A stretch of 64,000 bases of DNA from Sphingomonas panacis (GTDB taxonomy: Bacteria; Pseudomonadota; Alphaproteobacteria; Sphingomonadales; Sphingomonadaceae): positions 4,929,501 through 4,993,500 of the forward strand of contig NZ_CP014168.1 of assembly GCF_001717955.1 (NCBI RefSeq). Direction: 5' to 3'. Positions 4,370 through 24,510 of the stretch are shown piece after piece. The translations under genes were made by a program, and so were the position numbers. Positions within the stretch are counted from its first letter, which is position 1. Each line of letters opens with the position of its first letter. The notes beneath the pieces are model-generated. The model saw only the letters and a program-made list of their open reading frames with translations. It did no database searches and was not told where the DNA came from.

Positions 4370-5110
4370 GTGCTGACCCATCCTACTCTCGACCAACTCC
4401 ATGCCCTTGGCCTGTACGGAATGGCCAAAGCGTTCGGCGAACTCGGCAAGCACGGCGATACGCCGCAACTCGCGCACGCCGAATGGCTCGGTCTGCTGCT
4501 CGACCGAGAGATCGTCCATCGCCACGACAAGCGGCTCGGCGCGCGGCTGCGCCACGCCAGGCTCCGGCACAATGCCGCCCCCGAGGACATCGATTATCGT
4601 AGCGCGCGTGGGCTGGACCGCCGGCTCGTTGAAAAGCTGCTGAAGGGCGACTGGATCGACGCACACGACAATCTAGCGCTGTGCGGCCCGACCGGGATCG
4701 GCAAGAGCTGGCTTGCCTGTGCGATCGGCCACAAGGCCTGCCGCGACAATCGTTCGGTCCTCTATACCCGGTTCCCGCGCCTGCTTGACGACCTGGCGCT
4801 GTCGCGCGGCGATGGTCGCATCGCGCGCAAGCTCAAGAGCCTTGGCCAGGTCGAGCTCCTGATCCTGGACGACTGGGGACTTCAGCCGCTCGACGCTCAG
4901 GCCCGCCACGATCTCCTCGAAATCCTCGAGGACCGCTACGGACGTAAATCCACCATCGTCACCAGCCAGCTCGACATCGCGTCCTGGCACCGCGCCATCG
5001 GTGACGCCACCTACGCCGACGCGATCCTGGATCGGCTCCTTCACAATGCCCACCGTATCGAACTCACCGGCGACTCCTTGCGCCGGTCAAAGCCGACCGC
5101 CGCAGGTTGA
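4370..5110 (+). CDS. istB: IS21 helper ATPase IstB
   Basis: IstB is an AAA+ ATPase that helps IstA choose and capture target DNA. The 246-residue product starts at a GTG (MLTHPTLDQLHALG) after a GAGGAG site overlapping the istA stop. Walker A is GPTGIGKSWLA near residue 106 and Walker B is LLILDDWGLQPLD. TSQLDIASWH and the C-terminal [17 protein letters not shown] complete a normal IstB. All conserved parts are present, in contrast to the split outer copy. Confidence 0.92.
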   Translation: MLTHPTLDQLHALGLYGMAKAFGELGKHGDTPQLAHAEWLGLLLDREIVHRHDKRLGARLRHARLRHNAAPEDIDYRSARGLDRRLVEKLLKGDWIDAHDNLALCGPTGIGKSWLACAIGHKACRDNRSVLYTRFPRLLDDLALSRGDGRIARKLKSLGQVELLILDDWGLQPLDAQARHDLLEILEDRYGRKSTIVTSQLDIASWHRAIGDATYADAILDRLLHNAHRIELTGDSLRRSKPTAAG

Positions 5111-5755
5111 CGTTCCACCGCCAAAAATGCCAACCACACACTGTCGACCAAACGACCCTTCAGGTGGGCGCGATCATCCCGGAACGCTGGGCGCGATCAT
5201 CTCGGAATAGACGGGCGGCATCGTCGGAATCCGCACGCCTCGCTCTGCGCCTGCGTCACGCGAAACTGCGGCATCGCGCCGTGCCTGAGGATGTTGATTA
5301 TCGAACGCGCCGCAGCCTTGATCGCCGGCTCTTCGAAACGCTGCTGGCCGGGGAATGGATCTCCAAGCACGAAAACCTGGCCATCATCGGCCCGACCGGC
5401 ATCGGCAAAAGTTGGTTGGCCTGTGCGATCGGCCACAAGGCTTGCCGCGATAACCGTTCGGCTCTGTACACCCGGTTGCCGCGCCTGATCGACGAACTGA
5501 CGCTGGCCAAGGGAGACGGCCGTATCGCCGCCCGGATGAAGAGCCTTGCTCGGGTGGAGCTACTGATCCTGGACGACTGGGGTCTTCAACCACTCGACGG
5601 CAACGCCCGGCATCATCTCCTCGAAATCCTCGAGGACCGTTACGGTCAGCGTTCCACGCTCGTCACCAGCCAGCTTCCCGTGGCCCGCTGGCATCAGACC
5701 ATAAACGAGCCCAACATCGGGCAATACCCCTGATATCGATCGGCCTATCTCTTAT

Positions 5756-6151
5756 GTGACCGTCACGTCGCGCCGCCACGCACTGTTTGGACAACGGCTT
5801 GAGCTCCTCCAGTTCGACTCCGATCGAGGGCCGACCTGGGTGACGGTGCGGGTGCCGAACGGCAGTCGCCGCAACATTCGTCGTGCTCTGACCGATCTGG
5901 CGCAGCCTCTGACTGACTCGAAATCGCCTCCGCTGATCTCAGGCCGCATCCTTCTGCGAGTCGTCAATCATGCCGAGGCGTTGTCGCGGCGCCTTGAGGA
6001 GGAAAAGCGTAATGGCGAAGATGACGTCGCGGACGGCATTATCGATCCCGCCGCAGCTTTGGACCCATCTGCCGGAGCAGATCCGACGACGACTGGCTAC
6101 GCAGATTGCCCGTGCGCTGCGCCAGACACTGCACGACCGCCGCGCCGGTGA
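5756..6151 (+). CDS. Small DUF5372-like protein of the recombinase element
   Basis: The 131-residue product starts at a GTG (TVTSRRHALFGQRLELLQ) and continues with WVTVRVPNGSRRNIRRALTDL and a leucine/arginine-rich stretch. This N-terminal half resembles DUF5372 proteins, which often precede serine recombinases in the same kind of unit (family recall, not searched). Function is unknown; a role in recombinase control or DNA binding is only a guess. The C-terminal third (after about residue 85) overlaps the next gene in another frame and is low-complexity, so the functional product may be shorter. Confidence 0.55.
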   Translation: MTVTSRRHALFGQRLELLQFDSDRGPTWVTVRVPNGSRRNIRRALTDLAQPLTDSKSPPLISGRILLRVVNHAEALSRRLEEEKRNGEDDVADGIIDPAAALDPSAGADPTTTGYADCPCAAPDTARPPRR

Positions 6152-6182
6152 CGACAATGCTGAGATCCCTTTCGTCAGGTGA
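6012..6182 (+). CDS. Small helical protein of the recombinase element (56 aa)
   Basis: ATG 6012 follows a strong AGGAGG (5997-6002). The protein (MAKMTSRTALSIPPQLWTHL, then PEQIRRRLATQIARAL and QTLHDRR) is short, basic and probably helical. It overlaps the end of the upstream gene and the start of the recombinase, so the three genes are translationally packed. The conserved position between the DUF5372-like gene and the recombinase suggests it is a real third component. I do not recognise a family. Confidence 0.55.
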   Translation: MAKMTSRTALSIPPQLWTHLPEQIRRRLATQIARALRQTLHDRRAGDDNAEIPFVR

Positions 6183-8250
6183 CCCGATCAACGCGGTCCA
6201 TCGCGCGAAGCTGGCATATGTCTATGTCCGCCAATCGAGCGTCGGCCAGATCCGGTATCACCAGGAGAGCACGGCGCTGCAGTATCGGTTGGTCGACCGT
6301 GCACTGGGTCTGGGCTGGCCGCGTGAACGCGTCGAAGTCATTGATGACGATCTCGGCAAATCCGGTGCCGAGGCGCAGCATCGTCATGGGTTCCAGCGGC
6401 TGATAGCCGAAGTTGGGTTGGGTCATGCTGGGCTCGTACTCAGCTATGATGCTTCACGCCTGGCGCGCAACAATAGCGATTGGCATCAGTTGCTCCAGTT
6501 GTGCTCGATGTTCAGTGTCCTGATCGCCGACAGCGAACGGCTTTACGATCCCGCCGTCTACCACGACCGGCTGCTGCTGGGCTTGTCTGGGATCATGAGC
6601 GAGGCCGAGCTTCATCAAATCCGCATGCGGTTGCATCAGGGCGAACGCCAAAAGGCGGCACGCGGCGAGCTGCGCATGCCCTTGCCGGCCGGGCTGGCGC
6701 AGGCAGCCGGCGGAGGTATCATGCTCAATCCTGACGCTGAGGTACAGGAACGGATCCGGCTGGTGTTCGACAGCTTCTGCGGGTTGGGAAGCGCAAAAGC
6801 CGTCGTGCGTTACCTGCGCAAAGCGGATCTGGCACTCCCTGTTCGTCCGCTTCGCGGACCGGCTCCGCACGCGGTGGTCTGGCGCGACGCCAATGACGCA
6901 CGCGTGCGTACCATCCTCAAGAACCCGGCTTATGCCGGAGCATATGTCTATGGCCGCAGATGCGCGGCGCCGGAACGACGCAGCCTGGGAACGGCGCATC
7001 CCACCAAAGCGGTTCCGCGCGAGCAATGGGAGGTCTGCATCAAGGACGCGCACCCGGGTTATATCGGCTGGGAGGAGTATATGACCATCAACGATCGCCT
7101 GGCGGACAATGTCGGCAACTTCCGGGTCGGTCATCGCGGCGCCCCCCGTCGGGGTCGAGCCCTCCTCCAGGGCATCGTGATATGCGGCAGTTGCGCTCGG
7201 CGCATGGCGCTCAACTACTCCGGTCCCGAAAGCGACTTCCCGGTCTATCGCTGTCGCGGGGACCGCGACCTGGGAGCTGGCGAATATTGCCAGGAGGTTC
7301 GCGCCCCAAGGGTAGAGGCCGAAGTCGAGCGCCTGTTCCTCGCCGCGCTGGCGCCGGACCAACTCGCCGTGACGCTGGCGGCGCTGGACGAGATCAATAC
7401 CGATGCGCACGCGCTCGATCGGCAATGGGCGCTGAAGCGTGAGCGGGCGACATATGAGACAGAGCGGGCTCGTCGGCAGTATGACGCGGTCGAGCCCGAA
7501 AACCGCCTGGTGGCGCGCTCACTCGAAAGCATCTGGGAGGACAAGCTGCGCGATGCCGAGCGGATCGAGCAGGACTATCAACGATGGAAGACCGAACAGG
7601 CAAGCACGCTCAGCACCGAGGAACGCGCCCGCATTGCGGCGTTCGGTATCGACCTGCCTCGGCTGTGGGAGACACTCGGCAACGCCGACCGTAAGGCAAT
7701 GCTGCGCCTGGTAATCGACGAGGTGATCGTCGACCAGCGCCGCGCCAAAGGCATGGTCTGGATCCGCATCCTCTGGCAAACCGGCGCCGCGACCGAGCAT
7801 TGGCTGATGCGGCGCACGCAATCCTATGCCGACGCCGCGCAGTCCGAACAGATCGAGAAGCGTGTCCGTGAACTCAACGCCCAGGGCTGCATGGATGCCC
7901 AAATCGCTGCCGTCCTCAATAACGAGGGATTGCGAAACAGTCGTGGTGGTGCATTCGATAACGGCACGATTCATCTTTTGCGAAAACGGTGGGATATCCC
8001 GACAGCCAAGATCAATGGCGTCGAATGCAATCCGCCACGATGGCCAGATGGCAGCTACTCGATCCAGGGTGCGGCGGATATGCTTGGCGTCACTGCGCAA
8101 ACCGTGTTCAAATGGCTCAACAAAGGCCGACTTCACGGCCGCCAGTTGGCAAAAGGTCAGCCGTGGCAGATCGACTTGGTCGATGAGGAGATCGGCCCGC
8201 TCAAGGCGCAGGTGCGACGGACGACCCCTTCAAGGAGAACGGCATCATGA
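6157..8250 (+). CDS. Large serine recombinase with zinc ribbon and C-terminal helix-turn-helix
   Basis: This 697-residue enzyme probably moves the element by serine recombination. The resolvase domain has [13 protein letters not shown] (catalytic Ser in RQSS), IDDDLGKSG and [12 protein letters not shown]. The recombinase domain with [16 protein letters not shown] follows. Next is a zinc beta-ribbon ([12 protein letters not shown], then YRCRGD and EYCQEV) and a coiled region rich in Arg/Glu. The end carries a MerR-like helix-turn-helix ([20 protein letters not shown]). I choose ATG 6157 rather than upstream in-frame starts because it lies just inside the preceding gene. The gene stop is three bases before the inferred right crossover. 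Confidence 0.88.
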
Positions 8251-8627
8251 AACGTTCGGTGATCCGACCTACGCCGACGCGATTCTGGACCGCCTCGTTC
8301 ACAATGCACACCGAATCGAACTCGAGGGTGAATCCATGCGTCGGCCCGCAGCTGCAGCCGCTTGACCAAGACGCCAACATTAGGTGACATCCACGACCAA
8401 CGATCAGCCGCTTCAACTGCGCGCCATCAGATCGGAACGCTGCGCGGCATCAAATCGGAATGCCTGCGCGCGATCGTCGGAATCCGCATCTGGCACGAAC
8501 CGGTCGCGCGAGGCTACCATCCTAACCCTAGATAGCAGTCATTTCGGCTTGTTTCCTCATGGTAGAGACGTTCAACAGCGCTGCGCTCGTTCGGTCCAGA
8601 TGTTACAAGGCGTGGGCTTGAATGCAC

Positions 8628-9773
8628 TCATTCGCATTGACCGGCCGTGGTAAGGATCGCGCCGAGCGCATCGACTGCCATTTGTAGAGCTTGAGGCCGT
8701 GCCTTGCGAAGATAGCGGGTGTAATAAACCACCAACTCAGCCCGTGCGGCCGCGACATTCTTGGTCGAAACGCCATCACGCGCAGGTAGCTCGAGCTTCG
8801 CGTCATGCGGGGTTCTTCCAAATCGGGCAGTATCGATGCTCACCTCGTATTTGCGATAAGCGGCGTAGCGGATGGTTCCTTCGCAACCCGGCCAAGCTGC
8901 GCTCAGCTTTTTAACCAGTGCTGAAAACGCCGGCAGCGGCGGCAGGCCCGCTTCGCAATCGGTATTAAATACCCGATTGTCTCCCTGATCGCCATAAATG
9001 GAGGCGGTCGCGCCTAGCAGTTTTGGATGACCTACGATCGCTGCGCAGGGAATCTGGCGGACGCCTACGCCGCCGCCATCCGGCAGCAGCGGTCCGAGCA
9101 CGTCGAGAAAGCCCACCAGCCTGTCAGGCGATACCAGCAAATCCTCCACCTCCGTTACGACACCCGCGCCGGTAGCATCATCGAGCATATCGCGGCCGAA
9201 CGCCGAATTTTCCCCGTTCAGCAGATTACTCAAAACCGGCCTGAGTAGGGTGAGGATGCGAGATCGTCGTCCGGTGTGGGACGGAGAGGACCAGTCGGTG
9301 TCTTCAGGTTCGGACGCCCACAGGACGATGGCTTCCAGCACTGGCGCGAACGCCGGATCGAGGCGCCGGACCACAGGAAGCGCAAGCTCGGGCGCGCGCA
9401 TCACGGCGCCGATCGCCAGTGCGTAGTTACGGGTGTCGTAAGTCGCTCGCAGGCATTCGTCGATCGTCGCCTTACCAGACGGTGTCGCGCAATCTTCCAT
9501 GGCCCTGAGCGTCCGGCGCTGGCCGTCCCGTTGGTTCGATTCGCCCTCGCCAAAGGCGCTGACGCGATTGGCGGCATAGAGAGCCGCCATCTCCCGGTCT
9601 GCCGCCGCGAGTGAACGACTTCGACAAACCGTCGATGCGACAACACTCTGCTGCGGTCTGCAAGCGAAGCTCGGGCTCGACGACGTGCGATCTTGTGCAT
9701 GCGTAGGCGGAGCATTTGCCAACGCCACGCCCGAGACCAGCAGAAGCCACGCTGACATTGCGGGATACCTCAT
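8628..9773 (-). CDS. Secreted protein with LprI-like N-terminal domain
   Basis: ATG 9773 is preceded by GAGGAGG at good spacing; the frame extends further upstream without a better site. The first ~22 residues (MRYPAMSAWLLLVSGVALAN) form a signal peptide. Then FACRPQQSVVASTVCRSRSL and AAADREMAALYAANR match the pattern of the LprI/DUF1311 domain, a periplasmic lysozyme-inhibitor-like module. The remaining ~290 residues contain several cysteines but no recognised family. Upstream on the same strand are a 71-codon frame and an S41-type peptidase, so the three may form an operon acting in the periplasm. The substrate is unknown. Confidence 0.7.
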   Translation of the reverse strand: MRYPAMSAWLLLVSGVALANAPPTHAQDRTSSSPSFACRPQQSVVASTVCRSRSLAAADREMAALYAANRVSAFGEGESNQRDGQRRTLRAMEDCATPSGKATIDECLRATYDTRNYALAIGAVMRAPELALPVVRRLDPAFAPVLEAIVLWASEPEDTDWSSPSHTGRRSRILTLLRPVLSNLLNGENSAFGRDMLDDATGAGVVTEVEDLLVSPDRLVGFLDVLGPLLPDGGGVGVRQIPCAAIVGHPKLLGATASIYGDQGDNRVFNTDCEAGLPPLPAFSALVKKLSAAWPGCEGTIRYAAYRKYEVSIDTARFGRTPHDAKLELPARDGVSTKNVAAARAELVVYYTRYLRKARPQALQMAVDALGAILTTAGQCE

Positions 9774-11555: not shown

Positions 11556-11940
11556 GCCACAGAGCTAAGCAGCGGGCCGCGGGTTCGACAAGTTGGCTAG
11601 CGGCTGCAAAATTGCGCCGCCTTCAACAATTGGCCCGCTGCGGGTATGATCCCGATAAGGAAAGTTCAACGGGACAACCGGCGTCGGATTGGGTCTCCCG
11701 GCACCTCCGGTCGAGCCGCTTTCCCGAAACCTGTTCCCGATCGAGTTTTCCCGAAACGACCAGTCCGAGATGGAGAAACAGGACTGCTGCGCCTCGTTGA
11801 GATGGCCATTTTCAATATGCTGTTGCGATCTGCTGAATGGCCGGGAGTGGTCGCCTCCTTTCCGGCAGGGTCATAAGACTTGAACGGCTGCTCCTGTCGG
11901 CACCGGTCGTTGGGGCAAGCTAGGCCGAGTGTCTTAGTTT
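11556..11940. other. Intergenic region, no gene seen
   Basis: These 385 bases lie between the S41-type gene start and the left end of the first IS91-type unit. The short open frames in it have no ribosome site or recognisable product. The S41-gene promoter should lie at its left end. It looks like decayed sequence flanking the IS insertion. Confidence 0.5.
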
Positions 11941-12235
11941 GTGAAGGGTTTCGGGCGCTTGCGTACGAAAGCCTCCAGTGCAGGAACCCGCGGGCCCCAC
12001 GCGCTGGTCTATGGGTAAAGCGGCTTTTGGGTGGTTCGGACGGGTAAGCGATGCCGATCCGGAAGTGTCGGTTCTGGCCGGATCAACGTGACTTTGTGCG
12101 GCGTCAGAGTGCGGACGGTGGTGGTTTTGCTGGTCGATGTGCCCTTTGCCCGGCTCGCTTCTGGGATAGGCATGTGCTGCGTCGTCGGCCAGGACACTAT
12201 GGGTGCGACCGTTGTGCAGGCTGAGCCATGCCGGA

Positions 12236-13429
12236 TCATGGCGCATTCTCCCGGATTGGCGATGGCGATGATGGCGGCGCGCGGGGCTGGCACCAGCGGG
12301 CGAAGGCGTCGATGATGGTCATGTGCCCGCCGCAACATGGGCATGGCGGACGATGATCGGGCGGCTCGTCGGGTTCGGGCTCCTCGACCGGTGCGGCGAC
12401 GCCCAACAGCCTGCGGGCCAGCGCCATGGTGTCCTTGTGGGTCGAACTGGCGAGCAGGCCGTAATGCCGGATGCGGTGGAAGCCGCTCGGCAGGACGTGG
12501 ATCAGGAAGCGGCGAATGAACTCGTCGGTCGCCAGCGTCATGACCTGCTGGCGTTCGGCCCCGTCGCGACGGTAATCCTTATAGCGGAACGTCACGCCGT
12601 TCTCGTCGAAGCCGAGGAGCCTCCGGTTCGAGATGGCAACCCGGTGCGTATAGCGTGAGAGATAGGCCAGCACCGCCTGCGGCCCGGCGAAGGGCGGCTT
12701 GGCATAGACCACCCAGCGCTTCTTCCGGATCGGCGAGAGATGCCGCAGGAAGGCCTTGCGTGTCGCGAGGCCAGCCAAGGTGCTGAAGAAGGCCAGCTTG
12801 CCGGCATCGAACAATGCCAACAGGCGAGTGAGGAACAGACGGCGGAACAAGGCGCCCAGCACACGCACCGGCAGCAGGAATGCGGGGCGCGACGAAATCC
12901 AGCGCGTGCCGTCGAGCGCGATGCCACCGCCAGGCACGATCATGTGCACGTGCGGATGGTGGGTCAATGCCGATCCCCAGGTATGCAGCACGGCGGTGAT
13001 GCCGACCCGCGCGCCGAGGTGCTTGGGATCGGCAGCGATGGCTAGCATCGTGTCCGCCGCCGCGCGGAACAGCAGATCATAGACCACCGCCTTGTTCTGC
13101 CACGCGATATCCGCGATCTCAGCGGGCACGGTAAACACGACGTGGAAGTAGCCGATCGGCAACAGGTCGGCCTCGCGCGCGGCCAGCCAGGTGCGCGCGG
13201 CGGCGCCCTGGCACTTGGGGCAATGCCGGTTGCGGCACGAGTTGTAGGCGATCCGCCAGTGCCCGCAGTCGTCGCAGGCCTCGACGTGACCACCCAGTGC
13301 GGCGGTGCGGCAGTTCTCGATCGCCGTCATGACCTTGAGCTGGCCGAGGCTCAGGTGCCCGGCATGGGCAGCCCGATAGGCGGGCCCGGCGCTGCGGAAG
13401 ATATCGGCGACCTCGAGCGAGGTACGCAA
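12236..13429 (-). CDS. IS91-family Y2 rolling-circle transposase, copy 1
   Basis: This 397-residue HUH-type transposase nicks one strand and drives rolling-circle transposition. The N-terminal zinc region has EACDDCGHWRIAYNSCRNRH followed by CPKCQG. The HUH motif is HPHVHMIVPGGG, and the two catalytic tyrosines are in YLSRYTHR (Y-x3-Y). The C-terminus has a second cysteine cluster, PPCPCCGGHM. It starts four bases after the integrase stop, so the pair is one transcription unit. The length is normal for the family and no defect is seen. Confidence 0.92.
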   Translation of the reverse strand: MRTSLEVADIFRSAGPAYRAAHAGHLSLGQLKVMTAIENCRTAALGGHVEACDDCGHWRIAYNSCRNRHCPKCQGAAARTWLAAREADLLPIGYFHVVFTVPAEIADIAWQNKAVVYDLLFRAAADTMLAIAADPKHLGARVGITAVLHTWGSALTHHPHVHMIVPGGGIALDGTRWISSRPAFLLPVRVLGALFRRLFLTRLLALFDAGKLAFFSTLAGLATRKAFLRHLSPIRKKRWVVYAKPPFAGPQAVLAYLSRYTHRVAISNRRLLGFDENGVTFRYKDYRRDGAERQQVMTLATDEFIRRFLIHVLPSGFHRIRHYGLLASSTHKDTMALARRLLGVAAPVEEPEPDEPPDHRPPCPCCGGHMTIIDAFARWCQPRAPPSSPSPIRENAP

Positions 13430-13433
13430 GGGC

Positions 13434-14339
13434 TCAGCCGGGAGGTGCCCTGCCTTCCATCACGGCCACGATCTGGTCGAGCGGGCTGGCCACCGCCCGC
13501 ATCGTCTTGCTCGAGACCTGGGTATAAATGCCGGTCGTGTTGATGTTCACGTGTCCCAGCAAGACCTGGATGACCCGGATATCGACGCCCTGCTCGAGCA
13601 GGTGAGTGGCAAACGAATGGCGCAGTGTATGCGGGCTTACCCGCTTGTGGATGTCGGCGCGCTCGGCCGCTTCCTTCACGACGCGGTGCAACTGGCGAGC
13701 CGAGATCGGATCCGTGCCGCTGCGGCCGGGGAACAGCCAGCCATGAGGTAGCATCACTCCGCGCCGCTTGCCTTCGCGCCACCATTGACGGAGCAAGTCC
13801 AGCAGGTGCGGTGAGAGCATGGCGTTGCGGTCCTTGCGTCCCTTGCCCTGCTCGACGCGGATCATCATCCGGGTGCTGTCGATGTCATCGACCTTGAGGT
13901 GGGCAACCTCCGAAACCCGCAGGCCCGCACCATAGGCCACGCTGAGGGCCGCCTTGTACTTGATGCCTGGCGCAGCCTCGATCAGCCGCGCTGTCTCCTC
14001 GACGCTCAAAACCACCCGCAGCTTGGGTGTGAAGCGAACGACGACCAGCGCTAGCGCCATCTCCGGCCGCCTGAGGGTTATCCCGAAGAGGAACCGCAGT
14101 GCCGAAACGGCCCCATTGATCGTGGCCGGCCCTACGGCGCGCTCGTGCTGGTCAACCTGAAAACGCCGGAGGTCTTCCACCGTGGCCGTGTCCGGGGGGC
14201 GGCCGAGAAACGCGGCGAAGTTCCGGACATGTCGGATATAGTCGTTCTGCGTGTGCGCCCCGAAGCCACGCATCGTCATGTCCTGCAGCATCCGCTCACG
14301 CAGCGAATGGGTCGGCGCAGCGGTCGTAATAGCATCCAT
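13434..14339 (-). CDS. IS91-associated tyrosine recombinase, copy 1
   Basis: This 301-residue XerC/D-like recombinase travels with the IS91 transposase. The N-terminal SAM-like domain includes MLQDMTMRGFGAHTQNDYIR. The catalytic residues lie in YGAGLRVSEVAHL (Arg), HTLRHSFATHLLEQG (His-x-x-Arg), VLLGH (His) and TTGIYTQV (Tyr). It may resolve or target transposition intermediates; its exact role in this IS subgroup is not established. It is intact and nearly identical to the gene at 23337-24242. Confidence 0.9.
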   Translation of the reverse strand: MDAITTAAPTHSLRERMLQDMTMRGFGAHTQNDYIRHVRNFAAFLGRPPDTATVEDLRRFQVDQHERAVGPATINGAVSALRFLFGITLRRPEMALALVVVRFTPKLRVVLSVEETARLIEAAPGIKYKAALSVAYGAGLRVSEVAHLKVDDIDSTRMMIRVEQGKGRKDRNAMLSPHLLDLLRQWWREGKRRGVMLPHGWLFPGRSGTDPISARQLHRVVKEAAERADIHKRVSPHTLRHSFATHLLEQGVDIRVIQVLLGHVNINTTGIYTQVSSKTMRAVASPLDQIVAVMEGRAPPG

Positions 14340-14465
14340 GGTAAGTTCCTCTCCGTTGAAGGAACTCCACAGTCGGCGGGCGACGCCGCCCCCGCCGAAA
14401 GCCTCACAAATACTACACTACATCACCCCAAGCGACCCTCCCGCGGAGCGGGTTCGTGCTCTGGG

Positions 14466-14902
14466 GCGACTGCGGAAGGGCAGCTTTGACCGCCGCGATC
14501 GGCAGCTTCCGCCCAGACCGGACATTCACCGGAGATGAAATGGACGACGTCATCTGGTCGACGGCTACCGGAATTTCGTGGAACTTTGCAGCCATCCCGC
14601 TCCACCAGTTTACGTCGGCTTCCGACGGAAGCCGACCCGCCCGGTGTCAGTCGCGTTATATGAAAAGCCCTGCGAAAAACGGTGACCGCCGTCGCCCAAA
14701 TCGGTCCGCCACCTCTCGTCAAGAGACCATTGTCGTGAGTCTACGTCTATACTTACAAACGGGAATCAACGACAATTTTCAGGTGGCTTCTTCAACGTGC
14801 CAAAGCGCCGAACAACGCTTTATAGAAGTGAATTAGGTTGCAGTTCTCACAGGCGTGCTATTTTGCTCAACCCCACGTTTATGTTAGAATGGTTGCCGCA
14901 GA
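14466..14902. other. Intergenic region, no gene seen
   Basis: These 437 bases lie between IS91 copy 1 and the second serine recombinase. The base composition falls to more AT-rich near 14740-14900, where the promoter of the recombinase should be. Short frames on both strands have no ribosome site or recognisable product. The first ~60 bases look like remnant flanking sequence of a lost gene. Confidence 0.45.
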
Positions 14903-19480: not shown

Positions 19481-19865
19481 GCATTTCAATAACTGAAAAA
19501 AGTTTCACGGCTGCGACTCCGGTTGCTGTATGCTCCGGCATCCTCACCGGCATTCTCACCGGCATCCTCACCGGCATCCTCACCGGCATCCTCACCGGCA
19601 TCCTCACCGGCATCCTCACCGGCATCCTCACCGGCATCCTCACCGGCATCCTCACCGGCATCCTCACCGGCATCCTCACCGGCACGATAACCCTATTCGT
19701 CACGGCTCCCTAACGGATGTTTGAGGCTGCCTCATCATTCAACAATTCCAACCCACCATATCATCGGTTTCGGAATCGGTGTCGCAGCGGCGACGTAGGC
19801 CGGGTATGGTTGTCGTCCGCAATAGGAGCCGCGCACCAGTGCCTGGGCGATTGGGGGGGACTGCA
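19481..19865. other. Intergenic region holding a tandem repeat
   Basis: Besides the 12-bp tandem repeat at 19535-19684, this region has no convincing gene. Open frames across the repeat on both strands (His-Pro-His-Arg and Met-Pro-Val-Arg repeats) are by-products of its length being a multiple of three. The promoter of the Mrr-type gene should lie at about 19700-19850. Confidence 0.5.
19535..19684. repeat. 12-bp tandem repeat, 12 full copies
   Basis: The unit CCGGCATCCTCA is repeated twelve times head to tail from 19535 to 19678, followed by a partial CCGGCA. The only variant is copy 2, where one C is T. The near-perfect identity points to recent expansion by slippage. It stands 180 bases upstream of the Mrr-type nuclease gene, so copy number could alter promoter spacing. 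Confidence 0.9.
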
Positions 19866-20660
19866 ATGTCAGCCTGGGATTATGCGCAATGCGCCTATGG
19901 GGAAATCGAGTGCGCCTATCTTCTAGACACCTGCCCCTATTGCCGCGCTTCGCTCAACCAGCTCGATCCGGACATGGACGATGGACGGTTCGGCTATTTC
20001 ACGGAAGTCTGGGTCGGCATCTGCCAGCTTTGCGGATGGTGGAACGCGCGCGGCGAAGCCCGGGAGCGGGTCGATGCCCATACCGAGGCCGTCTACGAAC
20101 TCGGCTCATTTGGCGTGCTCAAGAATCTGGACCTCAAGAATATTGAGACGCCTTTGCAGGAGGTTCGCGACTATCTGACGGTCAAATATGACGATCGGCT
20201 GCAGATGGATCCGCAGCTTTTCGAGCGGACGGTCGGCAGCGTTTTCGGCGACCATGGCTATGAGCCGCAGGTGACCGCCTATTCGCACGATGGTGGGATC
20301 GACGTCATTCTCGCCGACGATGAGACGCGGATCGGCGTTCAGATCAAGCGGTGGAAAAACCGGATAGAGGCCGAGCAGATCCGGTCCCTGATGGGGGCGA
20401 TGGTTCAGGCTGGCCTCACCAGAGGAATGTTCGTCACAACCTCCTCGTTCCGGTCCGGCGCCTTCAAGACGGCTGACCGCTATACCAGTCTCGGCAGACC
20501 CGTCACCTTGGTCGACGCGCCGCGATTCTTCGATGCGCTCGGCTTTTCGCAGACTAGAGTCGATCGCTCGACGGGGGCGTGGATCACAAAGATCCGGCCG
20601 CATCTTAAGAAGCTCGGCGCGTTCAGCGATATCAACGAGGGTCGATTCTACGAGGATTGA
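19866..20660 (+). CDS. Mrr-type restriction endonuclease with N-terminal zinc ribbon
   Basis: The 264-residue protein starts at ATG 19866 after a G-rich site; a longer frame from 19779 exists but looks unlike coding sequence. Residues ~23-56 have two Cys pairs, CPYC and CQLC, forming a probable zinc ribbon. Residues ~117-200 form the Mrr nuclease fold: LFERTVGSVFGDHGY, then DGGIDVI (Asp near 146) and RIGVQIKRWK (Gln159-x-Lys161), the D-QxK catalytic signature of the PD-(D/E)xK class. Mrr-type enzymes cut modified or foreign DNA. No methyltransferase is nearby, as expected for a modification-dependent nuclease. It converges on, and overlaps by 13 bases, a GIY-YIG-like gene. Confidence 0.82.
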   Translation: MSAWDYAQCAYGEIECAYLLDTCPYCRASLNQLDPDMDDGRFGYFTEVWVGICQLCGWWNARGEARERVDAHTEAVYELGSFGVLKNLDLKNIETPLQEVRDYLTVKYDDRLQMDPQLFERTVGSVFGDHGYEPQVTAYSHDGGIDVILADDETRIGVQIKRWKNRIEAEQIRSLMGAMVQAGLTRGMFVTTSSFRSGAFKTADRYTSLGRPVTLVDAPRFFDALGFSQTRVDRSTGAWITKIRPHLKKLGAFSDINEGRFYED

Positions 20661-21688
20661 TCTGGCTGCTCCGGCTGATCCTCGTCAGGCACGCGCCACG
20701 GCTCCATCACATGATGATCCGTGTGCAGGAAAGCCGGGAAGCGGTCGAGGGAGAGTGTGGTCCAGCTATAGCCCTTGTCGCGCATGCCGCCTGCGATCCG
20801 GGGGTAATTGTCGAAGAGAACTTCGTTATACGCGGGCTTGAACAGGTGGATCAGATACGCCTCGACCTCGCGCGTTAGCGCTTCGTCGCCGAGTTCCACA
20901 GGCGATTTCCCGAAGCGTTCCAGCGCCTCGCCGTCCTCCGGGTCTAGGGCGAAGACGATCGGATCAGGGCCGGCCATGGGATGGTCGGCGTCGCCGAAGA
21001 CCATCGGCATATCGTCGAGCCCGGTCACCTGCAGGATGATGAGCGAGATCTCAAAGGGCGCGCGCGCCTCCGGCGCGTTGCTGACCTCGCGCTCACGGGT
21101 CAGGATTCGCTGCATCTTCTTATGGCGGGTCAGCCGATCCCAGACCTTCTGCGAAAAGCTCTGGCCGATGTAGTGGATCTTGAAGTCCAGGAAGGCGAAA
21201 GGATCTGAACCCTCGGCAATCTCCACGATCAGGTCATTTACCAGCATCTCGTAGAGCAGCTTTTGTGGGCTCCACCAGAGGATGAAATCGCCATTCTTGC
21301 GGAAGAGCTTGAAGCCGCCGACATTTCGCAGCGGCTGCACAGTATTTGGCTCATGGGATTGAAAGCCGACCTCGATATCGACGACCTCGCCCACCGTGCT
21401 GATGCCGTTGGCGACGAGGTTGATCCGGCAGGGCAGCGGCGGCTTCTCGCCATCGGCGATCTCGAAGCGGATGTAACTGTCGTCGATGACGACATTGTCG
21501 AAATAGGTCAGCGGGCGCTGGACGATAAGATAGATGGTCGATTTGGTCCACCGCTCGCGGACGACCTTCTCCTCCTGGAGAACGTCGAACTCATAGGCCG
21601 ACACGATCGGATAGGTCGTACTCGCGATGATCTTCGCAAAGCGCATCGCGGGGATCTTGTCGTCAGTCTGGGCGGCGGTGCCGGTCAT
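20648..21688 (-). CDS. Protein with GIY-YIG-like nuclease motifs, otherwise unknown
   Basis: I start it at ATG 21688; the frame is open to a GTG at 21727 and a later ATG (MRFAKIIAS) is also possible. The first ~165 residues are beta-rich and unlike anything I recognise. The C-terminal half has HYIGQSFSQKVWDRLTRHKK, which matches the second GIY-YIG motif with the conserved Arg and His. Further on, EAYLIHLFKPAYN matches the terminal Glu...Pro-x-Tyr-Asn part. The first GIY motif is not clear, so it may be a divergent or partly inactive nuclease. It shares its 3' end with the Mrr-type gene, suggesting a joint, perhaps defensive, function. No signal peptide is present. Confidence 0.6.
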   Translation of the reverse strand: MTGTAAQTDDKIPAMRFAKIIASTTYPIVSAYEFDVLQEEKVVRERWTKSTIYLIVQRPLTYFDNVVIDDSYIRFEIADGEKPPLPCRINLVANGISTVGEVVDIEVGFQSHEPNTVQPLRNVGGFKLFRKNGDFILWWSPQKLLYEMLVNDLIVEIAEGSDPFAFLDFKIHYIGQSFSQKVWDRLTRHKKMQRILTREREVSNAPEARAPFEISLIILQVTGLDDMPMVFGDADHPMAGPDPIVFALDPEDGEALERFGKSPVELGDEALTREVEAYLIHLFKPAYNEVLFDNYPRIAGGMRDKGYSWTTLSLDRFPAFLHTDHHVMEPWRVPDEDQPEQPDQSS

Positions 21689-21746
21689 GGGCGCGCCATA
21701 GCAGATTGTGCATTTTTTATCAGCCACTGCGCGCAGAAAGGCGGTT

Positions 21747-21765: not shown

Positions 21766-22138
21766 CTTAAGTCTAGCGTACGGTGAGCGGCAGGTCTTGG
21801 TAGAAGCCGCCGTTCACCCCCATGTCGTTAAATGGCGTGAGGTGTGAAGGGTTTCGGGCGCTTGCGTACGAAAGCCTCCAGTGCAGGAACCCGCGGGCCC
21901 CACGCGCTGGTCTATGGGTAAAGCGGCTTTTGGGTGGTTCTGACGGGTAAGCGATGCCGATCCGGAAGTGTCGGTTCTGGCCGGATCAACGTGACTTTGT
22001 GCGGCGTCAGAGTGCGGACGGTGGTGGTTTTGCTGGTCGGTGCGTGCTGCGCTGGGCTGGATTGCGGAATGGGCATGCACTGGGTCATCGGCCAGGACGC
22101 CGTGGGCGCGACCGTCGTGCAGCCTGAGCCATGCCGGA

Positions 22139-23332
22139 TCATGGCGCATTCCCCCGGATTGGCGATGCCGATGATGGCGGCGCGCGGGGCTGGCACCAGC
22201 GGGCGAAGGCCTCGATGATGGTCATGTGCCCGCCGCAACATGGGCATGGCGGGCGATGGTCGGGAGGTTCGTCGGGTTCGGGCTCCTCGACCGGTACAGC
22301 AACGCCCAGCAGCCTGCGGGCCAGCGCCACGGTGTCCTTGTGGGTCGAACTGGCGAGCAGGCCGTAATGCCGGATGCGGTGGAAGCCGCGCGGCAGAACG
22401 TGGATCAGGAAGCGGCGGACGAACTCGCCGCTCGCCAGCGTCATGACCTGCTGGCGTTCAGCAGCAGGGCGGCGATAGTCCTTGTAGCGGAACGTCACGC
22501 CGGCCTCGTCGAAGCCGATGAGCCGCCGGTTCGAGATGGCAACGCGGTGCGTGTAGCGCGAGAGATAGGCCAGCACCGCCTGCGGCCCGGCGAAGGGTGG
22601 TTTGGCATAGACCACCCAGCGCTTCTTACGGATGGGCGACAGATGCCGCAGGAAGGTCTTACGCGAGGCCAGGCCTGCCAAGGCGTTGAAGAAGGCCAGC
22701 TTGCCGGCGTCGAACAACGCCAGCAAGCGTGTGAGGAACAGCCGGCGGAACAACGCACCCAGCACGCGCACTGGTAACAGGAAGGCCGGGCGCGACGAGA
22801 TCCAGCGCGTGCCATCGAGCGCGATGCCGCCGCCGGGCACGATCATGTGCACATGTGGGTGGTGAGTCAGCGCCGATCCCCAGGTGTGCAAGACAGCAGT
22901 GATGCCGATCCGCGCACCAAGGTGCTTGGGATCGGCGGCGATGGTCAGCATCGTATCCGCAGCAGCGCGGAAGAGCAGGTCATAGACCACCGCCTTGTTC
23001 TGCCACGCGATGTCGGCGATCTCGGCGGGCAGCGTGAAGACGACATGGAAGTAGCCAACCGGTAATAGATCGGCCTCGCGCGCGGCCAGCCAGGTGCGCG
23101 CGGCGGCGCCCTGACATTTGGGACAATGCCGGTTGCGGCAGGAGTTGTAGGCGATACGCCAGTGCCCACAGTCGTCGCAGGCCTCGACGTGACCGCCCAG
23201 CGCGGCGGTGCGGCAGTTCTCGATGGCCGTCATGACCTTGAGCTGGCCGAGGCTGAGATGCCCGGCATGGGCCGCCCGATAGGCGGGCCCGGCGCTGCGG
23301 AAGATATCGGCGACCTCGATTGAGGCGCGCAC
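22139..23332 (-). CDS. IS91-family Y2 rolling-circle transposase, copy 2
   Basis: The 397-residue protein matches the gene at 12236-13429 along its length, with about one amino-acid change every few dozen residues (start MRASIEVADIF instead of MRTSLEVADIF). All active-site features are kept: the zinc region CDDCGHW to CPKCQG, HUH motif HPHVHMIVPGG, and Tyr pair YLSRYTH. It follows the integrase stop by four bases. It appears functional. Confidence 0.92.
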   Translation of the reverse strand: MRASIEVADIFRSAGPAYRAAHAGHLSLGQLKVMTAIENCRTAALGGHVEACDDCGHWRIAYNSCRNRHCPKCQGAAARTWLAAREADLLPVGYFHVVFTLPAEIADIAWQNKAVVYDLLFRAAADTMLTIAADPKHLGARIGITAVLHTWGSALTHHPHVHMIVPGGGIALDGTRWISSRPAFLLPVRVLGALFRRLFLTRLLALFDAGKLAFFNALAGLASRKTFLRHLSPIRKKRWVVYAKPPFAGPQAVLAYLSRYTHRVAISNRRLIGFDEAGVTFRYKDYRRPAAERQQVMTLASGEFVRRFLIHVLPRGFHRIRHYGLLASSTHKDTVALARRLLGVAVPVEEPEPDEPPDHRPPCPCCGGHMTIIEAFARWCQPRAPPSSASPIRGNAP

Positions 23333-23336
23333 CGGT

Positions 23337-24242
23337 TCAACCGGGAGGGGCCCTGCCTTCCATCACGGCCACGATCTGGTCGAGCGGGCTGGCCACCGCC
23401 CGCATCGTCTTGCTCGAGACCTGGGTGTAGATGCCGGTCGTGTTGATGTTCACGTGTCCCAGCAGGACTTGGATGACCCGGATATCGACACCCTGCTCGA
23501 GCAGGTGAGTGGCAAACGAATGCCGCAATGTGTGCGGGCTTACCCGCTTGTGGATCTCGGCGCGCTCGGCCGCTTCCTGCACGACGCGGTGCAACTGGCG
23601 GGCCGAGATCGGATCCGTGCCATTGCGACCGGGGAACAGCCAGCCATGGGGTAACATCACACCGCGCCGCTTGCCTTCGCGCCACCATTGACGGAGCAAG
23701 TCCAGCAAATGCGGTGAGAGCATGGCGTTGCGGTCCTTGCGTCCCTTGCCCTGCTCGACGCGGATCATCATCCGGGTGCTGTCGATGTCATCGACCTTGA
23801 GATGGGCAACCTCCGAGACCCGCAGGCCCGCGCCATAGGCCACGCTGAGGGCCGCTTTGTATTTGATGCCTGGCGCAGCCTCGAGCAGCCGCGCTGTCTC
23901 CTCGACGCTCAAGACCACACGCAGCTTGGGCATGCAGCGAACAACGACGAGCCCCAGCGCCATCTCCGGGCGCTTGAGGGTTATCCCGAACAGGAACCGC
24001 AGTGCCGAAACGCCCCCATTGATCGTGGCCGGCCCCACGGCGCGCTCGTGCTGGTCGACCTGATAACGCCGCAGGTCTTCCATTGTGGCCGTATCCGGCG
24101 GACGGCCCAGGAACGCGGCGAAGCTCCGAACATGCCGGATATAGTCCTTCTGTGTGTGCGCCCCGAAGCCACGCATCGTCATGTCCTGCAACATCCGCTC
24201 ACGCAGCGAATGGGGCGGAGCAGCGGTCGTGATAGCATCCAT
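23337..24242 (-). CDS. IS91-associated tyrosine recombinase, copy 2
   Basis: The 301-residue recombinase is almost identical to the one at 13434-14339 and keeps the catalytic residues in YGAGLRVSEVAHL, HTLRHSFATHLLEQG and TTGIYTQV. Differences are few and conservative (for example APPHSLRER for APTHSLRER). It is the first gene of the two-gene IS91 unit. Confidence 0.9.
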   Translation of the reverse strand: MDAITTAAPPHSLRERMLQDMTMRGFGAHTQKDYIRHVRSFAAFLGRPPDTATMEDLRRYQVDQHERAVGPATINGGVSALRFLFGITLKRPEMALGLVVVRCMPKLRVVLSVEETARLLEAAPGIKYKAALSVAYGAGLRVSEVAHLKVDDIDSTRMMIRVEQGKGRKDRNAMLSPHLLDLLRQWWREGKRRGVMLPHGWLFPGRNGTDPISARQLHRVVQEAAERAEIHKRVSPHTLRHSFATHLLEQGVDIRVIQVLLGHVNINTTGIYTQVSSKTMRAVASPLDQIVAVMEGRAPPG

Positions 24243-24510
24243 GGTAAGTTCCTCTCCGTTGAAGGAACTCCACAGTCGGCGGGCGACGCCGCCTCGCCGA
24301 AAGCCTCACAAATACTACGCTACGTCATCCCAAGCGACCCTCCCGCGGAGCGGGTTCGTGCTCTGGGTCGATAGCAGCCCGCGAATCAGAAGGTTTTTCG
24401 GTCGTTTGGCGAAGGTTCGAGTCCGACTTTTTGAGGGTGGACCTTGCATGGACCACGGCTCGTGCACCGAAAAGAACATCGTTTAAAATCAACTGGATGG
24501 CAAGTCGTTG

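Follow-up and report, generated by a model that had tools for sequence, protein, structure and literature searches.

Two genes for unrelated nuclease-like proteins lie tail to tail in the genome of Sphingomonas panacis, within a stretch of 64,000 nucleotides that was analysed as a whole and is called the window here. The question raised by this locus is whether the two genes form a system directed against foreign DNA or merely share a mobile segment, and what kind of nuclease the less familiar of the two might be. The original prediction took an Mrr-type endonuclease (gene A) and a GIY-YIG-like protein (gene B) for a two-gene defence module kept on a mobile island. In the open reading frame list both genes are intact and convergent, and their stop ends overlap by 13 bases as predicted (Table 1). 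The mobile setting was also recovered, as direct copies of a two-gene IS lie 9.9 kb apart on both flanks of A and B. The copies are 92% and 94% identical over compared stretches of 300 and 80 bases, and the right one is situated about 125-155 bp upstream of the start of B. Judging from their motifs, the IS genes probably encode a tyrosine recombinase and an IS91-like transposase. Between the copies is a segment of about 7 kb holding A, B and three further named genes, which by their motifs are presumably serine-recombinase-like, GGDEF-like and MucR-like. Upstream of A, at 19535-19690 of the window, about 13 tandem copies of the 12-base unit CCGGCATCCTCA occur, an array that can be read as an MPVR repeat in a minus-strand ORF.

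Table 1. Features of the A/B locus in window positions, with the strong PADLOC matches beside B at other loci
Feature	Position	Strand	Basis
IS copy to the left of A and B, with genes for a tyrosine recombinase and an IS91-like transposase (ends approximate)	11920..14469	-	ORFs, repeats; names from motifs
Gene A, zinc-ribbon and Mrr_cat (PD-(D/E)xK) nuclease, 264 aa	19866..20660	+	ORF from ATG (19866) to stop (20660); PF04471; conserved Cys, D146, Q159, K161
Zinc ribbon of A (C23, C26, C53, C56)	19932..20033	+	conservation, 21-row alignment
Mrr_cat nuclease domain of A, residues 113-224	20202..20537	+	PF04471 match
Convergent overlap of the A and B ORF ends	20648..20660	.	13 bases
Gene B, 346 aa, GIY-YIG-like nuclease, catalytic domain apparently split	20648..21688	-	ORF from ATG (21688) to stop (20648); ten invariant columns (45 rows); UvrC and Eco29kI profile matches
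E-A-x-L-I-x4-P-x-x-N block of B, residues 276-288	20825..20863	-	UvrC profile alignment; Eco29kI 3nic in the same region
YIG and RL..H block of B, residues 173-189	21122..21172	-	alignments; model pLDDT block means 62-73 (low)
Insertion of B between GIY and YIG, acidic and beta-rich, residues 62-168	21185..21505	-	net charge -9 in 107 residues; model strands
Putative GIY strand of B, residues 52-60, Y53	21509..21535	-	model strand 52-59; Y53 invariant; GIY label inferred from invariance and order
IS copy to the right of A and B, in direct orientation (ends approximate)	21814..24371	-	ORFs, repeats; names from motifs
PADLOC neighbour PD-T7-5	L002		E <= 1e-60
PADLOC neighbours CBASS cyclase and PDC-S73	L008		E <= 1e-60
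PADLOC neighbour SIR2-pAgo	L011		E <= 1e-60
PADLOC neighbour PDC-S60	L015		E <= 1e-60
PADLOC neighbour PD-T7-3	L059		E <= 1e-60

Gene A had been described as an Mrr-type endonuclease with a zinc ribbon and a D...QxK core, and both the profile matches and the conserved columns agree. The Mrr_cat profile PF04471 matches with an E-value of 1.4e-25, further Mrr-like matches are weaker, and the PADLOC families PDC-S02 and mREase_IV match in part, while Mrr_N was not matched in the domain-profile search. Homologs of A numbered 146 of 737 candidates at E <= 1e-3, and a 21-row alignment was built with 20 of the 120 listed. C53, C56, D146, Q159 and K161 are invariant in it and C23 and C26 are at least 90% conserved; the zinc ribbon and the D...QxK core are therefore real. 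A has the Mrr_cat domain in common with Mrr, PDC-S02 and mREase_IV, but differs from them in its N-terminal zinc ribbon and in the missing match to Mrr_N. A is a separate, ordinary nuclease of the zinc-ribbon Mrr type, presumably a restriction enzyme and probably type IV-like. Among 396 genomes of the order a full-length match to A was found in its own genome only, with 41 others matching only past the zinc ribbon; the same was true of 327 genomes of the class, where 46 others match parts of the protein.

If A and B were a module of complementary nucleases, their intactness, adjacency and overlapping ends would be expected, and one other strain lends the idea some support. For Sphingomonas sp. 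FW199 a B relative of 78% identity and an A relative of 74% identity are each listed on a contig of 822,262 bases, so that FW199 seems to carry both genes on one contig; A and B may thus have moved jointly on one occasion or more, and may have persisted as a pair through substantial divergence. Against a module, the genes converge without a common promoter, and an A-like gene was found at none of the 33 other B loci (E <= 1e-3), a set in which L003 and L004 share the same DNA, as do L014 and L060, and six loci span only 3.5-8.7 kb. Five of 16 B-bearing genomes have Mrr-domain matches, of which a single one reaches the zinc ribbon, and that one lies on another contig, in a genome with a split B gene. 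The class genome G923 has a partial match to A and a B-family gene, again on separate contigs, and a DNA search of 295 genomes of the genus found the A-B pair only in its own genome, the 43 other matching genomes giving short, weak matches with two candidates scored per genome. Additionally, no neighbour of at least 90 aa within 5 kb recurs in more than three of 24 B loci if B and the ORFs that overlap it are set aside, and those three loci are all from Caulobacterales. Literature searches for GIY-YIG together with Mrr in anti-phage defense, and for an Mrr-like nuclease with a zinc ribbon together with GIY-YIG, found no paper. The original prediction was to fall if each gene occurred alone, which was largely the case in the co-occurrence run, a result softened by FW199 with apparently both. 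As a general rule the two-gene module is ruled out by the co-occurrence at loci and in genomes, with FW199 as the apparent exception, and for the pair in the window we regard it as improbable. B generally lives without A, and the two look like independent passengers whose pairing is mostly shared cargo.

The identity of B was less readily established. An in-frame GTG lies upstream of its ATG, at 21727, and most aligned homologs start near the ATG. The protein has no match in Pfam, PADLOC or NCBIfam at E <= 1, and 133 of 1487 candidates were homologs at E <= 1e-3; with homologs in such numbers, neither A nor B is a chance reading frame. A genome scan yielded 23 loci, with identity down to 24-28% at seven diverged ones, and the member at one diverged locus has 829 relatives of its own at E <= 1e-3, a sister subfamily; overlap between the lists of 133 and 829 was looked at within the 120 matches listed for each. 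The alignment of the B subfamily, with 63 rows, took in 62 of its 120 listed homologs, and that of the sister subfamily 54 of its 120 together with eight loci. Profiles of the two subfamilies match each other with 99.6% probability and an E-value of 7.4e-24, and the tyrosines of their N-terminal IY motifs are aligned. B represents an unnamed and uncatalogued family of predicted nucleases.

The motifs HYIGQS, RL..H and E..LI...PAYN, on which the GIY-YIG assignment of B had been based, fall on invariant or near-invariant columns of the 63-row alignment. Y53, Y173, G175, R185, L186, H189, E276 and N288 are invariant there, and in 45 diverged rows ten columns are invariant, namely the same eight with P285 and P296. 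The active-site order of GIY-YIG nucleases (Tyr, Tyr, Arg, Glu and a C-terminal Asn) is followed by Y53, Y173, R185, E276 and N288, with H189 in addition, so the GIY-YIG likeness stands with a fuller catalytic set than had been seen at first. Y53 is most likely the GIY tyrosine, judging from its invariance and its place in the order. On a first reading of the alignment the GIY motif had seemed lost from B, a view that was dropped once the sister subfamily pointed to Y53.

Kinship to GIY-YIG nucleases was also sought with profiles. With the B subfamily by itself, a profile search of the PDB found nothing at E <= 10. At the same threshold the sister-subfamily profile gave five matches, all UvrC (best E 0.0075), and a joint profile of the two gave eight, of which five are UvrC (best E 0.022), two are unrelated proteins and one is Eco29kI (3nic, E 0.62). 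When applied to the 327 class genomes, the joint profile found nine matches, three of them B-family members and the other six frames of 544-635 residues that all have a UvrC-type GIY-YIG start; by their motifs these six are probably UvrC. In hhalign comparisons with Eco29kI or UvrC none of 40 column-shuffled decoys reached the real score, and with small single-domain GIY-YIG proteins there was no signal over decoys (2 of 40 and 11 of 40 as good). The matches to UvrC and Eco29kI centre on the Glu/Asn helix, and their single E-values are weak. The Pfam GIY-YIG family PF01541 matched none of the 63 B rows at E <= 1, and the commonest weak match of these rows was DnaT (six of 63, best 0.017). By sequence B belongs to the GIY-YIG nucleases, the sister subfamily being needed for the profile matches.

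What sets B apart is the distance between its two tyrosines. Y53 and Y173 are 120 residues apart, compared with 86 in the sister subfamily, and we read the long gap between GIY and YIG as an insertion of about 110 residues. The catalytic domain would be interrupted by it, with the GIY strand (Y53) and the YIG strand (Y173) parted by an acidic, beta-rich stretch, after which RL..H (R185, H189) and then the Glu/Asn helix (E276, N288) would complete the site. B is plausibly unnamed in Pfam, NCBIfam and PADLOC because the insertion breaks the GIY-YIG signature. The original prediction spoke of a beta-rich N-terminal half; the beta-rich stretch is there, although it is not one N-terminal domain but mostly the insertion between GIY and YIG. 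In the predicted model of B (mean pLDDT 86; 88 for a second model) strands run through the insertion, followed by a strand at 168-174, helices within 182-196, a long strand at 212-230 and a helix at 269-283, an order of elements that is compatible with GIY-YIG. The model is weak at residues 181-210, including the R/H helix (pLDDT block means 56-62), and the helices within 182-196 are of low confidence (block means 58-62). In searches with the two models by Foldseek against the PDB and by VIA, and with the first model by Foldseek against the viral set, the inserted domain filled the lists and no GIY-YIG structure was among those listed.

The insertion is acidic in all 63 rows of the B subfamily (mean charge -8.6, range -13 to -2), and in the sister subfamily its mean charge is -5.0 (range -10 to +2). 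Beyond the insertion the mean charge is -8.1 in the B subfamily and -1.2 in the sister, and the acidity of B is not special to the insertion. The whole protein has a net charge of -20, and net charge is negative in 63 of 63 rows of its own subfamily and in 58 of 62 sister rows. Of the UvrC and small GIY-YIG domains tested, all nine (UvrC three of three) are basic; among seven Eco29kI-like proteins the net charge runs from -11 to +8 and is negative in two. The original prediction saw a possible recognition domain in the beta-rich stretch. The insertion may still recognise DNA, but its acidity makes a simple role of this kind somewhat less likely and would suit inhibition or the sensing of a protein.

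The closest counterpart in active-site layout is the R.Eco29kI family (PF09517, Type II). The site of R.Eco29kI is described as Y49, Y76, R104, H108, E142 and N154, with the mutants Y49A, H108F and E142A inactive (PMC1952068), and all six recur in B in that order. Even the spacing from Arg to His (R-x3-H, +4) and from Glu to Asn (E-x11-N, +12) is identical, but the tyrosines of Eco29kI are 27 residues apart and those of B 120, and PF09517 matched one of the 63 B rows, with an E-value of 0.13. In restriction enzymes like Eco29kI the GIY-YIG core is reported to carry insertions and extensions (PMC1564403). A second difference lies in the surroundings of the genes. The m5C methyltransferase motif was present at six of seven Eco29kI loci, which served as the control, and at none of 33 B loci; nor was it found in the window from 10 to 32 kb, in keeping with the claim that no methyltransferase is linked to the pair. 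The screen was a regular expression with one cut-off for loci and control, and divergent enzymes can escape it.

B has a patchy distribution, with matches in two of the 396 order genomes (one of them weak) and in three of the 327 class genomes. It was unmatched in 50,697 phage records and, at the DNA level, in E. coli genomes; three of 72,556 plasmids match it, and five IMG/VR contigs encode relatives. An unnamed PHROG family, phrog_15714, matches 43 of the 63 aligned B rows (best E 1.1e-8), the B of the window not being one of them. At L017, in Candidatus Competibacter phosphatis, a B homolog is apparently split over two frames (7815-8622).

The neighbours of B were scanned at 18 loci, diverged loci being left out, using the 89 ORFs left from 92 candidates after removal of three duplicates; 30 ORFs were scanned singly and the tallies cover the best 25 of 70 PADLOC and the best 25 of 71 Pfam families. 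Among the matches listed, five of the 18 loci have a PADLOC match at E <= 1e-60 near B (Table 1), a raw count without a control set. There is in addition a weaker HNH match in L010 and one AbiEii match not mapped to a locus, and the rest of the neighbours are of ordinary kinds, SBP, HlyD and sulfatase among them. Several individual loci may be described here. At L002, from a Devosia MAG (5063-9002), genes for a 700-aa UvrD/ResIII-like helicase and a 223-aa ORF precede B on the same strand, with PD-T7-5 beyond them. At L008 (5013-9005) the CBASS-type cyclase, another ORF and a DUF6710 gene are upstream of B, and on its other side are the PDC-S73 gene and a relative of the IS91-like transposase of the window. 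At L013, from Pseudomonas linyingensis (7092-7871), a HEPN_Swt1-like gene, weakly matched and short of the Pfam cut-off, lies directly upstream of B. On plasmid CBMB27-p1 (L057) a 58% identical B is found beside VapB/VapC, CHAT-domain and thermonuclease genes.

These surroundings bear on what B does. UvrC acts in repair and has further domains, and its N-terminal GIY-YIG domain shares with B the E-A-x-L-I-x4-P-x-[FY]-N helix; unlike B, it has a short GIY-YIG gap of about a dozen residues and a basic domain (three of three). B could be a structure-specific nuclease serving repair or recombination in mobile elements, UvrC-like in role and not a defence protein, and both its closest profile matches, which are to UvrC, and the presence of its relatives on plasmids and beside transposases would suit such a role. 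We consider this rather unlikely, as no other domain was matched in B, its distribution is patchy and not universal, and strong defence genes lie near several of its copies. A toxin-like nuclease or a homing-type selfish endonuclease would likewise account for a solitary and mobile gene, and homing enzymes are placed within the GIY-YIG superfamily (PMC1564403). Such an identity is highly unlikely for B, given the absence of matches in the phage records (though IMG/VR contigs do encode relatives), a protein in which no DNA-binding module was matched, the want of a recurrent partner among genes of at least 90 aa, and a net charge that is negative throughout the subfamily.

Two anti-phage nucleases offer a further comparison. 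CMoRE is described as a single-gene GIY-YIG type IV defence enzyme with an inhibitory, negatively charged loop (PMC12923530), and it resembles B in being one gene, in its GIY-YIG nuclease and in having a negatively charged element. In that account, however, the GIYxY-YIG motif of CMoRE is unbroken (Y17 to Y31), its nuclease lies at the N-terminus and a distinct sensor forms the C-terminus, and this layout sets it apart from B, whose catalytic domain is split with the extra domain inside. SNIPE is described as a membrane-bound anti-phage GIY-YIG nuclease with a transmembrane segment and DUF4041 (PMC13190303); the GIY-YIG nuclease domain is shared with B, but DUF4041 has no match in it. Since CMoRE and SNIPE are GIY-YIG defence proteins outside restriction-modification pairs, they make a defence role for B more plausible and its novelty lower.

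On balance we lean towards B being a stand-alone GIY-YIG protein with a split catalytic domain, a one-gene, methyltransferase-free defence nuclease carried on mobile DNA, with A as separate cargo. As such, B would most likely degrade or nick foreign DNA, and its insertion may hold the active site off host DNA until this is relieved by a trigger, possibly a phage protein or phage DNA that bears modifications. A stronger version makes the insertion an acidic sensor domain inside the GIY-YIG core that keeps the two tyrosines apart until a phage signal assembles or uncovers the site, which would amount to an undescribed defence family with a methyltransferase-free self/non-self switch housed in the catalytic domain itself; this we put forward as an unlikely, speculative extension. 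If B does defend against phage, it would add to the known systems a solitary, methyltransferase-free class of GIY-YIG nuclease with a built-in extra domain, and it would be a clear target for mutagenesis. The B family also shows that profile libraries can miss split catalytic domains.
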